Assembly (NCBI GenBank): GCA_002722215.1
Contig: PBKX01000008.1
Location: 1 to 47,188, forward strand
From: Flavobacteriales bacterium
GTDB taxonomy: Bacteria; Bacteroidota; Bacteroidia; Flavobacteriales; TMED113
Direction: 5' to 3'
Length of the DNA: 47,188 nucleotides
The notes under the pieces were generated by a model, which had not been told where the DNA came from, ran no database searches, and was given only the letters and a program-made list of their open reading frames with translations. A program made the translations under genes and the position numbers. Below, one piece after another: positions 8,748 to 36,090 of this stretch; position 1 is the stretch's first letter, and the number at the start of each line of letters is the position of its first letter.

Positions 8748-9929
8748 TTAATTGGTAATATGATCTAAATTATCAGGCAAATCTCGCCAATGCCACTTTT
8801 CTTGTACAACACCTTTACTTAAAAGAAAAACACCCGGGTTAGCTCTGATCATAGTTTTTAAAGTTGTCTGATCAACCAAAAAGTAAGGATATAACAATTC
8901 TGATTGTGATAATTTATTTTTCACTTCAGCAGTAGAAGAAGATGATAGACCATAAACTGGTAAATTAGGTCCTAATACATTAGCAATAAATTTATCAACA
9001 ACACCATGTGCCTGAACATCTGTTTTTTGAATATCATAAGACACAACTAACAGCACCTTATCTAAAGATAATATACTATCAGTCATCTCAATATCATTGA
9101 CAGCGTCAACAATGTCAAAATCATGTATTTTTGGCTCATCTCCTTTAATTAGTAATTTTGTTTTTCTATCCTTAAAAATCGCCCCATTTATTTTCCATGG
9201 CTCATCTGATGTTTCAAACTCTTTAACAATACCATCAATCTCATAATACCAAACATCTTGATACACATCTTTTTTCGCATCTTCAGGGAGCTTTCTATCT
9301 TCATTAATATTAACGCCAACCTTATATGCCCTAAAGTCAATAAAAGGCAAATGTGATAAGGCATTAATAGGGATGAAGCATAAAATTAAACCCTTAATAA
9401 TTAATAATCTATTAACAGTTTGACGATGTAAGAATAGGCTAATTTTAGCCTGAGTGAAAAATAAGATCAAAGAAATAAATAAAAGATAAATATCCTTAGA
9501 GAAGGAAGTCCAGGGATCTAACTTCATGAAATCGCCAAAACATCCACAATCAGTAACTTTATTAAAATAGGCAGAAAAAAAAGTTAGAAATGTAAAAAAG
9601 ATCATTAATAATAAATTACCCCACATTACTTTTCTAATATGGATGCCATAAAATAAAAATAAACCTAAAAACAGTTCAAACAGAATAATGGAAACAGATA
9701 AAACTAAGCTTGCTGGAACAAGAAAATTGAGTCCAAACACCTCAAAATACTCTTGTAGTTTATATGAAAAGCCCAATGGATCAATTAATTTTACAAAGCC
9801 AGAAAATAAAAGAAAAATAGCATACGAGAATCGTAATATGTTGACCATAAATTTTTGAGTAAGCAATTTTGTTGCGAAAGATAAAATAGCAAGCACCTGG
9901 ATACTTAATAAAATAATTAAAAACTTCAT
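8748..9929 (-). CDS. BT_3928 family (DoxX/MauE-like) membrane protein
   Basis: The 393-aa protein begins with a hydrophobic helix, followed by a four-helix DoxX/MauE-like block (about 25-165) with GFVKLIDPLGFSYKLQEYF and a conserved DCGCFGD loop. One further helix follows (about 170-195). The soluble C-terminal half ends in a thioredoxin-fold-like part (LLVVSYDI, then FLLSKGVVQEKWHWRDLP). BT_3928 is a Bacteroidota family without an established reaction; a quinone- or thiol-linked redox function is an inference from the DoxX and MauE relatives. Its start overlaps the DUF1599 stop by four bases (ATGA), so the two are translationally coupled. Confidence 0.88.
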   Translation of the reverse strand: MKFLIILLSIQVLAILSFATKLLTQKFMVNILRFSYAIFLLFSGFVKLIDPLGFSYKLQEYFEVFGLNFLVPASLVLSVSIILFELFLGLFLFYGIHIRKVMWGNLLLMIFFTFLTFFSAYFNKVTDCGCFGDFMKLDPWTSFSKDIYLLFISLILFFTQAKISLFLHRQTVNRLLIIKGLILCFIPINALSHLPFIDFRAYKVGVNINEDRKLPEDAKKDVYQDVWYYEIDGIVKEFETSDEPWKINGAIFKDRKTKLLIKGDEPKIHDFDIVDAVNDIEMTDSILSLDKVLLVVSYDIQKTDVQAHGVVDKFIANVLGPNLPVYGLSSSSTAEVKNKLSQSELLYPYFLVDQTTLKTMIRANPGVFLLSKGVVQEKWHWRDLPDNLDHITN

Positions 9930-10532: not shown

Positions 10533-11384
10533 TTGGATTTTTATAAAAAATTAAAGAAAAAAAACAGCATGCCATTAATTATGGGCATTTTGAATTTAAC
10601 ACCTGATTCATTTTATGATGGAGGTAAATACAACAACATAAAAAACGCCGTAAATCAAGCTCGAAATATGATATCAGAAGGGGCTGATATTATTGACTTA
10701 GGCGCATGTTCTTCTAGGCCCGGATCTCAGCCCATTTCTTTAAAAGAAGAAGAAAAAAGATTATTTCCAATATTACTAAAATTACGTGAAATTTTCCCCG
10801 AGATTATAATTTCTATTGACACATATAGGTATCAAATTGCAGGACAGGCAATAAACTATGGGGCAAATTTAATTAATGACATATATATAGAAAAAGATGA
10901 AGACAAAATGCTACAAACAATCCAAAAACATGATATACCCTATGTATTAATGCACATGTCTGGCAATCCAACCAATATGCAAAAAAAAATATCTTATAAT
11001 CACTTCGAAAAAGACATAAAAGATTTTTTTATACAAAAAATTAGAAAATTAGAAAATTATGAGATTACTAAAATTATTCTAGATCCTGGATTTGGGTTTG
11101 GTAAAACACTATATCAGAATTATGAATTAATCAATCTGCTACCAAAAATGATGCAATTAAAATATCCAATACTAACTGGAATTTCCAGAAAATCCATGAT
11201 TAGTAAAGCGTTAAACATACAGACTAATGACACTATTAATGGGACAACAGTATTAAATACCATTTGTCTGATGAAGGGGGCCAAAATAATTAGAGTACAT
11301 GATGTTAAAGAGGCCAAAGAAAGTTTGGAAATTTTTAAATTAGTAGCAAAAAATAATCCTAATCCCTCTATAATAAAGATTTGA
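10533..11384 (+). CDS. folP: Dihydropteroate synthase
   Basis: Condenses p-aminobenzoate with hydroxymethyl-dihydropterin diphosphate in folate synthesis. Signatures: MGILNLTPDSFYDGGKY near the N-terminus, GADIIDLGACSSRPGS (usually GGxSTRPG), the central SIDTYR and LINDIY, DPGFGFGKT, the LTGISRKSMI loop and the C-terminal RVHDVKEAK. The track's start is TTG 10533. The only ATG that fits (10569) would begin at MPLIMGILN and remove the short strand that normally precedes this motif, so TTG is kept, with doubt. The stop overlaps the TTG of the next gene (TTGA). In many Bacteroidota cdaA follows folP; here two lipoprotein genes follow. Confidence 0.95.
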   Translation: MDFYKKLKKKNSMPLIMGILNLTPDSFYDGGKYNNIKNAVNQARNMISEGADIIDLGACSSRPGSQPISLKEEEKRLFPILLKLREIFPEIIISIDTYRYQIAGQAINYGANLINDIYIEKDEDKMLQTIQKHDIPYVLMHMSGNPTNMQKKISYNHFEKDIKDFFIQKIRKLENYEITKIILDPGFGFGKTLYQNYELINLLPKMMQLKYPILTGISRKSMISKALNIQTNDTINGTTVLNTICLMKGAKIIRVHDVKEAKESLEIFKLVAKNNPNPSIIKI

Positions 11385-11962
11385 ACAAATACTCTTTTAT
11401 ACTGACCCTGATCTACTTATTTAGCTGTAACAATAACAGTACATATACATTATCTGATCAGGAGATTATATTTTCTATAAAAAAGAAAAATCATATAGAT
11501 AGTTTAAAAATTAAACGAAACGAAAAATTAAAAGTATTTTTTGCTATTGATCCAGAGTGTCCTTTATGTAAATCATATAGCAAAACAATGAATGATCTAT
11601 ATTCAAACTACCAAAATAATATTGATTTTTATGCATTTTTACCATCACCTATTTTTTTAAAAAATAAAATGGAACAATTTGTAGAAGAGTATTATTTTGA
11701 CATGAATGTAATCATAGACACAAATCAAATTTTAACTCATTTTCTGAATGCTACCATAACACCTGAATGTTTTCTGCTAGATAAAAACCTCAATATCATC
11801 TACCAAGGATTGATAGATGATTGGGTCAAGAAGCTAGGAAGAAAAGGACAGAAAATCAACCATAGATATTTAGAAGAAGCTATTGAATCTCATCTAAATG
11901 AGGAGTCAATTAATATCAATAAAACTAATGCAATTGGATGTCGTATACAAATATTAAAATAA
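11381..11962 (+). CDS. Thioredoxin-fold (redoxin-like) lipoprotein with CPLC motif
   Basis: The 193-aa protein starts at TTG 11381, overlapping the folP stop. A short hydrophobic leader ends in a lipobox-like LFSC (C16), predicting an exported lipoprotein. The thioredoxin-like core has a beta strand KVFFAID followed by PECPLCKSY (C60, C63) at the redox-active position, and later a probable cis-proline strand, TITPECFLLD, as in TlpA and redoxin proteins. The next gene, a cytochrome c/copper monooxygenase-like lipoprotein, starts 25 bases before this one ends. A role in reducing or assembling the heme or copper site of that partner is an inference. Confidence 0.82.
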   Translation: MNKYSFILTLIYLFSCNNNSTYTLSDQEIIFSIKKKNHIDSLKIKRNEKLKVFFAIDPECPLCKSYSKTMNDLYSNYQNNIDFYAFLPSPIFLKNKMEQFVEEYYFDMNVIIDTNQILTHFLNATITPECFLLDKNLNIIYQGLIDDWVKKLGRKGQKINHRYLEEAIESHLNEESININKTNAIGCRIQILK

Positions 11963-13296
11963 CATACTTTATATTATGCATTATCATAATGGGATGTACG
12001 AAAAATGAAACCACATTTCATCAAGACATTAAATATATTATTCATGAAAAATGTGCTGTGTGTCACCATCCAAAAGGTGCAGGACCTTTTAGTCTAATCA
12101 CGTACCAAGACCTAATAAAAAGAGCAGATATGATAAAAGAGGTTATAGAGGCAAAATATATGCCTCCCTGGCCGGCAGATCCAGAATATAGAAGCTTTTT
12201 ATATGAAAAATCCTTAACCCCTGATGAAATTGAGAAAATAACAATATGGCTAAATGGAAAGCAACAAAAGGGCGAATGGACTAATAATTCTTTTTTGGAT
12301 TCATTGCTAGTGAAAGATGAGAAAAGGAAGCCAGACTTACAATTAACAATGAAACAGAGTCATATTACTAATTCAACAAATCAAGATCAATTTTTAATGA
12401 TGAAATTTCCGTTTGAGTTAGAAAAAGATACATTTATTAGGCAAATTGAGTTTGTCCCTGGAAACACACAGATAGTACATCATATAAATGCTCATCTAAT
12501 CACATATAGTTCAACAGAAAAAACAAATTTATTTGATGGTGAATATATTGTTGACACGGAACTTTTCTCTGATGAAGCATGTTTTAAAAAATTAAATATT
12601 TTGAATGATAGCGGAGAATATCCAGTATTAACACCATCAGTATCGAATTATCTTCCTGGCTCTGAACAAACAATCTATCCAACTGGAATTGGTGGTTTTA
12701 CTGCAAAAAAACAAAATATTATTTTAGTTAATGATTTCCACTATGCTCCAACACCTTACTCAGTAAAAGACAGTTCTTATTTTAATATATACTTTAGTAA
12801 ACACCCCCCAAAAAGAAAAATTCAAGAAACACAATTAGGCACATTTGGAATATCTAAAATTAATCCTCCACTAATTATCCCTCCAAATGAAATTAAAAAG
12901 TTTACTACTCGTGCAAGGATAACAAAAGACATATCACTACTAACAATAAATCCACACATGCATTTGTTGGGCAAATCATTTTTAGCTTATGCTGTAACTA
13001 TTAATGATGACACAATACCATTAATCAAAATTGATGATTGGAATTTTAGATGGCAATATTTTTACACTTTTAAAAAGATGTTAAAAATTCCTGCTGGTTC
13101 AGAAATCATAGTAGAAGCGACATATGATAATACATCGAACAACCCTGACAACCCATTCTCTCCACCTACAACAGTCTCAGAAAGAGTAAATTTTAATGGA
13201 AGAGGAAGTATGAAAACATCAAATGAAATGTTACAATTTATAATTAACTACTTACCATATGAAGAGGGGGATGAAGACATCCATTTAGGAATTTAA
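11938..13296 (+). CDS. Lipoprotein with cytochrome c motif and type II copper ascorbate-dependent monooxygenase-like (PHM) domain
   Basis: At 452 aa, the leader ends in IIIMGC (C20, lipobox). A short cytochrome c-like domain carries CAVCH (C39, C42, H43) and the likely axial Met in YMPPWPADP (M75). The C-terminal two thirds resembles the peptidylglycine alpha-hydroxylating monooxygenase core, with a complete set of candidate copper ligands: VHHINAH (H181, H182), DFHYAP (H268), NPHMHLLGK (H340, H342) and NEMLQF (M431). The substrate is unknown. In some other phyla a redoxin, cytochrome c and this domain occur in one polypeptide (remembered knowledge); here the redoxin is a separate overlapping gene. 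Its stop overlaps that of convergent pyrD by 12 bases. Confidence 0.85.
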   Translation: MSYTNIKITYFILCIIIMGCTKNETTFHQDIKYIIHEKCAVCHHPKGAGPFSLITYQDLIKRADMIKEVIEAKYMPPWPADPEYRSFLYEKSLTPDEIEKITIWLNGKQQKGEWTNNSFLDSLLVKDEKRKPDLQLTMKQSHITNSTNQDQFLMMKFPFELEKDTFIRQIEFVPGNTQIVHHINAHLITYSSTEKTNLFDGEYIVDTELFSDEACFKKLNILNDSGEYPVLTPSVSNYLPGSEQTIYPTGIGGFTAKKQNIILVNDFHYAPTPYSVKDSSYFNIYFSKHPPKRKIQETQLGTFGISKINPPLIIPPNEIKKFTTRARITKDISLLTINPHMHLLGKSFLAYAVTINDDTIPLIKIDDWNFRWQYFYTFKKMLKIPAGSEIIVEATYDNTSNNPDNPFSPPTTVSERVNFNGRGSMKTSNEMLQFIINYLPYEEGDEDIHLGI

Positions 13297-34410: not shown

Positions 34411-36090
34411 TTATTTAAATAAAGAGTCGACAAAACGCATTTTATCAAATAATTGAAGATCGCCAATACCCTCACCAACCCCTATATATTTAATAGGTAT
34501 ACTTAACTGATCACAAATTGAAATCACAACTCCACCTTTAGCGCTACCATCTAATTTGGTTAATGCTAAATGAGTAACCTTTGTAGATTTTAAAAATTGC
34601 TTCGCTTGTTCAAGAGCATTTTGCCCTGTGGAAGCATCTAAGACTAAAACCACTTCATTAGGAGCTTCAGGTAATAACTTATGAATTGCCTTATTAATTT
34701 TTTCCAACTCCATCATCAGATTAACTTTGTTATGTAATCTCCCAGCCGTATCAATTAATATATAATCCATATTATTAGAAATACCAGACTGAACTGTATC
34801 ATAGGCAACAGATGCTGGATCAGCGCCCATAGCTTGCCTTATAATTGGGACATCTATTCGTGTGGACCAAGACTCAAGCTGATCAATTGCTGCTGCCCTA
34901 AAAGTATCGGCAGCGCCCATTAAAACTTTCTTTCCACTCATCTTTAGCGAATTGGCTAATTTAGCAATAGTGGTAGTTTTCCCCACACCATTTACCCCTA
35001 CAAATAATATCACATATGGATGAGATGCATCTAATTCACTACTAATAGCATCTCCACCAACACTAAGTAAATTGACTATTTGTTGTTTTAAAATTTTTTT
35101 CAACTCAATTTCATCTAGATAGCTGTTCTTTTCTACATAATCTTCAATTAAATCGATGATCTTCACTGTGGTATCTACACCAACATCTGCTACTATTAAC
35201 ATTTCCTCTAAATCATCTAAGAAACTATCATCTATTTTATTTTTTCCAGAAAAAAATAATTTCATTTTACTAAAAAAACCCTCTCGAGTTTTATCTAGAG
35301 TCTTATCTAGTTTCTCCTCTTTTTTATCAGAAAAAAGATTATTCTGAGAACTAGATGAAGAATCATTAAATCCTGGTTCTGAAGTTATCTCTGGTTCTGA
35401 AGTTATCTCTGGTTCTGAAGCTAACTCTGGTTCTGAAGCTAACTCTGGTTCTGAAGTTATCTCTGGTTCTAAAGCTACCTCTAGTTCTGAAGTTATCTCT
35501 GGTTCTGAAGTTATCTCTGGCGCTGAAGCCAACTCTGATTCTGAAGTTATCTCTGGCTCTGAAGCCAACTCTGATTCTGAAGTTATCTCTGGTTTTGAAG
35601 CTAACTCTGGTTTTGAAGCTAACTCTGGTTCTGAAGCTAACTCTGGTTCTGAAGTTATCTCTAGTTCTGAAGCTAACTCTGGTTCTGAAGCTAACTCTGG
35701 TTCTGAAGTTATCTCTAGTTCTGAAGTTATCTCTAGTTCTGAAGCTAACTCTGGTTCTGAAGCTAACTCTGGTTCTGAAGTTATCTCTGGTTCTGAAGTT
35801 ATCTCTGGCTCTGAAGCCAACTCTGATTCTGAAGTTATCTCTGGTTCTGAAGCTAACTCTGGTTCTGAAGTTATCTCTGGCTCTGAAGTTATCTCTGTCT
35901 CTGAAGCCAACTCTGGTTCTGAAGTTGATGCTAGTGATGATTGTCGCTCTAGTTCCAATACTGAATCAGATTCTAAAACTATTTTTTCTAGATCTTTTTT
36001 ATCTAATCCTGTATTAGTTTTGTCTGTTTTCTCCTTGGATTTCTTAGAGGGAACACTAAAAATCCCTTTAATCTTATCAAAAATACCCAT
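34411..36090 (-). CDS. ftsY: SRP receptor FtsY with long acidic hexapeptide-repeat N-terminal domain
   Basis: Membrane-associated GTPase that receives Ffh-ribosome complexes. The C-terminal NG domain (about 255-559) is standard: FVGVNGVGKTTTIAKLA, MGAADTFRAAAIDQL, DTAGRLHNKVNLMMEL, LTKLDGSAKGG and GVGEGIGDLQLF near the end. Residues 1-50 are a lysine-rich start (MGIFDKIKGIF), probably amphipathic. Residues 57-242 are about 31 tandem hexapeptides of the type SEPELA or SEPEIT, making the protein 559 aa against a remembered length of about 320 for Bacteroidota FtsY. The acidic extension recalls the acidic A domain of E. coli FtsY in charge but not in sequence. The gene follows DUF4295 as is normal in this phylum. 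Confidence 0.95.
   Translation of the reverse strand: MGIFDKIKGIFSVPSKKSKEKTDKTNTGLDKKDLEKIVLESDSVLELERQSSLASTSEPELASETEITSEPEITSEPELASEPEITSESELASEPEITSEPEITSEPELASEPELASELEITSELEITSEPELASEPELASELEITSEPELASEPELASKPELASKPEITSESELASEPEITSESELASAPEITSEPEITSELEVALEPEITSEPELASEPELASEPEITSEPEITSEPGFNDSSSSSQNNLFSDKKEEKLDKTLDKTREGFFSKMKLFFSGKNKIDDSFLDDLEEMLIVADVGVDTTVKIIDLIEDYVEKNSYLDEIELKKILKQQIVNLLSVGGDAISSELDASHPYVILFVGVNGVGKTTTIAKLANSLKMSGKKVLMGAADTFRAAAIDQLESWSTRIDVPIIRQAMGADPASVAYDTVQSGISNNMDYILIDTAGRLHNKVNLMMELEKINKAIHKLLPEAPNEVVLVLDASTGQNALEQAKQFLKSTKVTHLALTKLDGSAKGGVVISICDQLSIPIKYIGVGEGIGDLQLFDKMRFVDSLFK
35365..35922 (-). repeat. 18-bp tandem repeat array (about 31 units) inside ftsY
   Basis: Plus-strand units read GGTTCTGAAGCTAACTCT or GGTTCTGAAGTTATCTCT, encoding SEPELA and SEPEIT hexapeptides on the minus strand. 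Every unit is in frame. Variants (SETEIT, SESELA, SKPELA, SELEIT, SAPEIT, SELEVA, LEPEIT) are single-base changes. Doublets and longer blocks of identical units recur, consistent with slippage or unequal recombination. Confidence 0.95.

Follow-up and report, generated by a model that had tools for sequence, protein, structure and literature searches.

The known eukaryotic PHM and dopamine beta-hydroxylase (DBH) serve in neuropeptide and neurotransmitter pathways and are driven by ascorbate; DBH also has a DOMON domain. For the redoxin encoded beside the bacterial PHM-like protein analyzed here, the nearest solved chain is 2CVB (TTHA0593; 2.7e-6), and we know of no role of 2CVB-type proteins as lipoprotein partners of a monooxygenase. 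A literature search found no paper describing a pair of a redoxin and a cytochrome c-PHM protein. Such a pair is encoded in the window, i.e. the whole stretch of 47,188 nucleotides from a marine Flavobacteriales bacterium that was analyzed, where it is arranged with its neighbors as follows:

10533..11384, + strand, folP (dihydropteroate synthase), upstream neighbor (Pterin_bind, 6e-74)
11381..11962, + strand, redoxin gene (ORF1; AhpC/TSA, thioredoxin fold, putative lipoprotein), TTG start, 193 aa
11938..13296, + strand, cytochrome c plus PHM-type dicopper monooxygenase gene (ORF2; putative lipoprotein), 452 aa
13285..14343, - strand, pyrD (dihydroorotate dehydrogenase), convergent neighbor (DHO_dh, 2.3e-86)

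The coordinates of both ORFs and their 25-base overlap (11938-11962) agree exactly with those of the initial annotation. The end of folP overlaps the start of the redoxin gene by four bases, and pyrD on the minus strand overlaps the end of the PHM gene by 12 bases. Since folP and the redoxin gene overlap and pyrD runs into the tail of the PHM gene, the unit consists of folP, the redoxin gene and the PHM gene, and the convergent pyrD is its end. Relatives have the same gene order at the folP and pyrD flanks, and pyrD is kept within the family. The dN/dS values computed against three relatives are approximately 0.22-0.29 for the redoxin and 0.14-0.20 for PHM; such low values indicate purifying selection on both, and thus both are maintained genes. 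Neither the plasmid search nor the defence-system library gave a match.

The product of ORF2 carries the following features:

11995..11997, + strand, lipobox Cys C20 (IMGC), assigned by reading; Cys in 81 of 112 relatives
12052..12066, + strand, CAVCH heme c attachment motif, C39-H43, from sequence and alignment
12160..12162, + strand, M75 of MPPWPADP, probable heme axial ligand; invariant (112/112)
12478..12483, + strand, H181-H182, CuH ligands by the PHM pattern and fold; invariant (112/112)
12739..12741, + strand, H268, predicted third CuH ligand; invariant (112/112)
12955..12963, + strand, H340-M-H342, predicted CuM ligands, profile-aligned to rat PHM H242/H244; invariant (112/112)
13228..13230, + strand, M431, predicted CuM Met ligand, paired with M314 of the rat PHM DEM motif; invariant (112/112)

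Conservation was counted on an alignment of 112 homologs reaching down to about 25% identity, and a 79-row alignment served as an additional check. All six PHM-type copper ligands listed in the initial annotation (H181, H182, H268, H340, H342 and M431) proved to be exactly as stated, and Q373, N398 and E430 are also invariant in the 112 homologs. The CxxCH heme motif claimed at the same time is equally secure, with C39, C42 and H43 present in all 111 alignment rows that have letters at these positions. Together with M75 as the putative distal axial ligand, it gives ORF2 the features of a c-type cytochrome, and the Pfam cytochrome c models match it below their cut-offs only. The Pfam family Cu2_monoox_C matches ORF2 at 7.4e-7 (29.2 bits; curated cut-off, 23). 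No match to the N-terminal copper monooxygenase family was obtained for ORF2 at E values up to 1, which is a feature of model sensitivity, and that region is covered by the fold search.

An AlphaFold model of the ORF2 protein, built on 79 sequences, reached a mean pLDDT of 90.5 and a pTM of 0.85. Its best 31 PDB matches are all PHM or DBH (best E value 1.9e-13), and a shallower first model gave the same fold. The TM score to PHM is about 0.6, with an rmsd of 6-7 Å over both domains, which suggests that the two domains of the model stand at a different angle. Fold and conservation in combination predict that the copper sites converge. Because neither phmmer nor hmmsearch detected a solved PHM relative at the sequence level, fold and profile comparisons were used to relate ORF2 to the known enzymes. 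The profile alignment was based on rat PHM residues 236-329, a fragment that is present letter for letter in PDB chains, and it pairs rat H242, H244, Q272 and M314 with H340, H342, Q373 and M431. The copper-site residues of rat PHM are discussed in PMC6123673.

At an identity of about 12%, ORF2 and rat PHM (1PHM) have in common the two-domain fold, the HH..H ligands of CuH, the HxH..M ligands of CuM, and aligned Q272 and DEM positions; the fold and the copper ligand pattern are also those of DBH (4ZEL). In contrast to PHM, which relies on ascorbate, ORF2 carries a cytochrome c, and its family has no conserved disulfide cysteines. Where DBH has its DOMON domain, ORF2 has a c-type cytochrome domain, and it is a predicted lipoprotein with a separate redoxin partner. 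Moreover, R240, N316 and Y318, the anchors of the substrate carboxylate in PHM, have N338, Q433 and I435 as their aligned counterparts in ORF2, and the family varies or differs from PHM at these positions. A peptidylglycine substrate is therefore unlikely, and ORF2 lacks the anchor set of a peptidylglycine hydroxylase proper. The three-His CuH site, the HxH...M CuM site, the two-domain beta fold, and the C-terminal Pfam match are those of the copper type II (PHM/DBM) monooxygenase superfamily, and the PHM-type reading proposed initially is thus supported at the level of domains, ligands, and fold. Judged from sequence and model, ORF2 would be an unstudied variant within this superfamily, for which hydroxylase activity and copper binding are predicted.

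The product of ORF1 matches the Pfam family AhpC-TSA at 3.5e-6, above the curated cut-off. The positions that matter for its interpretation are listed below:

11426..11428, + strand, lipobox Cys C16 (LFSC), assigned by reading; Cys in 43 of 60 relatives
11558..11569, + strand, CPLC, residues 60-63; C60 and P61 invariant, C63 variable among 60 relatives
11936..11941, + strand, GGATGT, codons of redoxin Gly186-Cys187, containing the PHM ATG (11938-11940); common to all six members of the window's clade

Across the 60 redoxin relatives, C60, P61, G143 and G186 are invariant, and C187 is a cysteine in all but one, which has an ambiguous residue there. Although the protein had been called a CPLC redoxin, and CPLC does stand at residues 60-63 in the window, this motif is not a signature of the family because C63 is replaced by Ser, Ala or Thr in 18 of the 60. 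For the same reason, the family does not have the conserved CXXC pair of TlpA/ResA-type proteins; the PxxxT/SxxC active site of peroxiredoxins is also absent, with FFAIDPEC before C60, no Pro at C-7, and Asp at C-3. From the conservation pattern, C60 and C187 are likely the functional thiol pair. Both a CP cysteine and a C-terminal AIGCxI cysteine are shared with the TTHA0593-like thioredoxin-fold proteins (2CVB), which differ in having HCPY where the window redoxin has CPLC. The N-terminal lipobox Cys read in LFSC of the redoxin and in IMGC of the PHM protein suggests that both are lipoproteins; the surface location given in the initial annotation would be conjectural.

To examine the association of the two genes across genomes, 80 Bacteroidota loci were fetched by a contig scan with a Bacteroidota profile, of which 75 had enough upstream sequence; the genome groups searched were all centered on the genome of the window. 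A redoxin lies directly upstream of PHM in 50 of the 75 loci, as a separate gene in 49 and fused in one. Elsewhere, it is downstream of PHM (L127, L138 and L139) or divergent (L133). The association is far above chance, so that the link initially drawn between the two genes stands, and the opposite possibility, that the redoxin is never associated with the second gene, is rejected by the adjacency in these 50 loci. A redoxin is not strictly required next to PHM: the other 25 loci have no adjacent redoxin and keep all PHM ligands, and one paralog in the window's genome has none nearby. The two-gene form is the standard across Bacteroidota. Redoxins related to ORF1 are also found where the genome has no PHM match, and the redoxin family is therefore broader than its pairing with PHM.

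The window's genome, a marine genome of 1.43 Mb, has two further cytochrome c-PHM paralogs. One of them (G000:C4, L024:1751-4023) lies near a collagen-repeat protein, is preceded by a redoxin of its own, and bears a T9SS-type Por secretion tail; the other (G000:C35, L023:989-4102) is a protein of 1037 aa without an adjacent redoxin. At L033:2320-4414 (the same place as L093), the gene directly upstream of the PHM homolog is msrA (peptide methionine sulfoxide reductase), replacing the redoxin.

It had been proposed that the window pair is a split version of a fused enzyme. Fused homologs were indeed found, composed of the three modules of the window pair in unchanged order. Within the same family, two genomes of genus g2 (L036 and L037) carry at this locus a single redoxin-cytochrome c-PHM gene of 630 aa, the PHM part of which is 55-56% identical to the window PHM; a further entry, L046, is apparently identical to the L036 contig. 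In genus g7 (L049), the redoxin and PHM genes are in the same frame with only a stop between them. The fusion junction, whose mapping in fused homologs had been suggested as a check, falls at the C-terminal GCxIE of the redoxin: the g2 redoxin passes through this motif directly into the cytochrome, with neither a stop nor a second signal peptide, whereas in the window the genes are separate and both products have a lipobox. The GGATGT arrangement of the window is found in its five nearest relatives, and a 16-base overlap is common elsewhere because any GGN-TGY gives an NTG start. An enrichment of GGA at the Gly-Cys motif is not claimed, the overlap class itself being defined by the start codon.

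The direction of change at this locus was the reverse of that proposed. In the tree, the fused g2 pair is sister to the two-gene L049 (100/99) and lies inside a two-gene clade (100/99); larger trees agree with this nested position, and keeping the seven two-gene family members together was rejected by the AU test (p = 0.00011). A combined alignment of fused and split rows misaligned the redoxins and was left out. Since the g2 fusion is nested in a two-gene clade, fusion is the derived state here, and the idea that the window pair arose by splitting of a fused gene is rejected for this locus. At the family level, the window pair is thus the ordinary, older form and not a split fused enzyme, in line with two-gene ancestry within Bacteroidota. 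Two deeper fused forms were also detected, one of 599 aa in another family of the order (L124) and one of 629 aa on an IMG/VR contig with a GC content of 63.6%, which came from a viral contig scan (L153). The latter gene (L153:1104-2993) lies on its contig with phage-like genes. L124 and L153 group together in the trees of PHM (support 86) and of the redoxin (93), with long branches.

The location behind folP, which the initial annotation had noted, is correct for the window, where folP is directly upstream, but the closeness is secondary. The order in g7 and g2 is folP, cdaA, and then the redoxin-PHM pair or the fused gene (cdaA at L049:2674-3441 and L036:3808-4581), and proximity to folP therefore has little functional meaning. 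In the window's subclade, cdaA (c-di-AMP cyclase) is missing between folP and the redoxin gene (window 11381-11384), and no DAC domain was found in the searched genomes of this subclade, which are incomplete assemblies. The neighbors folP and pyrD give no clue to the substrate. Two genes before folP, the window encodes a MauE/DoxX membrane protein (8748-9929, - strand), and the two g2 loci with the fused gene likewise have a MauE homolog upstream of folP.

We consider it fairly probable that the two-gene unit provides a periplasm-facing heme-copper monooxygenase lipoprotein that is fed by its own heme c and has a dedicated thiol partner. The redoxin and PHM genes would be translated by overlap behind folP, and both products, as far as the lipoboxes indicate, would be membrane-anchored lipoproteins facing the periplasm. 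Electrons would pass from a periplasmic or respiratory c-type pool to heme c (C39/C42/H43, axial M75) and on to CuH (H181/H182/H268), heme replacing ascorbate as the electron donor. Oxygen would be activated at CuM (H340/H342/M431), and a C-H bond of a substrate other than peptidylglycine would be hydroxylated. The presence of a cytochrome c assembly gene in the genome favors this mechanism. The redoxin, with C60 and C187, would be a dedicated thiol partner whose likeliest role is maturation or protection of the heme-copper protein, either by keeping the heme cysteines reduced or by removing peroxide from uncoupled turnover. Apart from the lipid Cys and the pair in CXXCH, the PHM protein has no conserved cysteine, so that it offers the redoxin no conserved thiol target other than the heme cysteines. 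A classical CXXC reductant fits poorly with the replacement of C63 in 18 of 60 redoxins.

A more direct part for the redoxin, in which it would hand on electrons or thiol equivalents to the heme or the copper at each turnover, seems rather unlikely. The repeated physical coupling of the two proteins, by fusion and in several gene orders, and the invariant C60/C187 would fit such a relay, but one third of the loci keep all PHM ligands without an adjacent redoxin. No donor route of PHM is known to us in which thiols supply heme c, which also counts against it. That the two genes are unrelated and were brought together by genome packing is hardly credible and was rejected: related redoxins are indeed present by themselves in genomes that have no PHM match, but against this stand the association in 50 of 75 loci from several families, the conservation of the overlap, the fusions, and the alternative gene orders.

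Of the other alternatives, a true fission, in which a redoxin-cytochrome c-PHM gene, fused in the ancestor, was divided and its second part acquired a signal peptide in the overlap, survives only at the root of the whole family, which the joining of the deep fused L124 and L153 would allow to be fused. We regard this as improbable, as the branch of L124 is very long and the two-gene form surrounds the fused one in both the family and the phylum, in addition to the AU result. It is similarly doubtful that the PHM-like protein is a copper/heme oxidase, reductase or sensor with the same ligand set. The lost equivalents of R240, N316 and Y318 and the lack of a solved relative at the sequence level would suit such a protein; against it, the six copper ligands are invariant in the 112 homologs together with Q373 and E430, as expected for dicopper chemistry.

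Returning to the heme-fed monooxygenase with a dedicated thiol partner, we tentatively suggest that it may well stand for a widespread, uncharacterized Bacteroidota class: a lipoprotein monooxygenase of the PHM fold with a covalently built-in heme c in place of ascorbate and a non-peptide substrate, dependent on a C60/C187 partner to which it has been fused more than once, and encoded by three such genes in the 1.43-Mb genome. A bacterial PHM branch wired to cytochrome c would be a case of this fold being driven by a respiratory chain, and the ORF2 family could make the much-debated transfer of electrons between the two coppers accessible to experiment. The occurrence at one locus of two genes (window), two in-frame genes with a stop (L049), and a fused gene (L036/L037) allows direct tests of the effects of fusion. 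Elsewhere in the window, an FtsY-like GTPase ORF was recognized by reading at 34411-36090 (- strand); its N-terminal part contains a long SEPEITSEPELA-type repeat.
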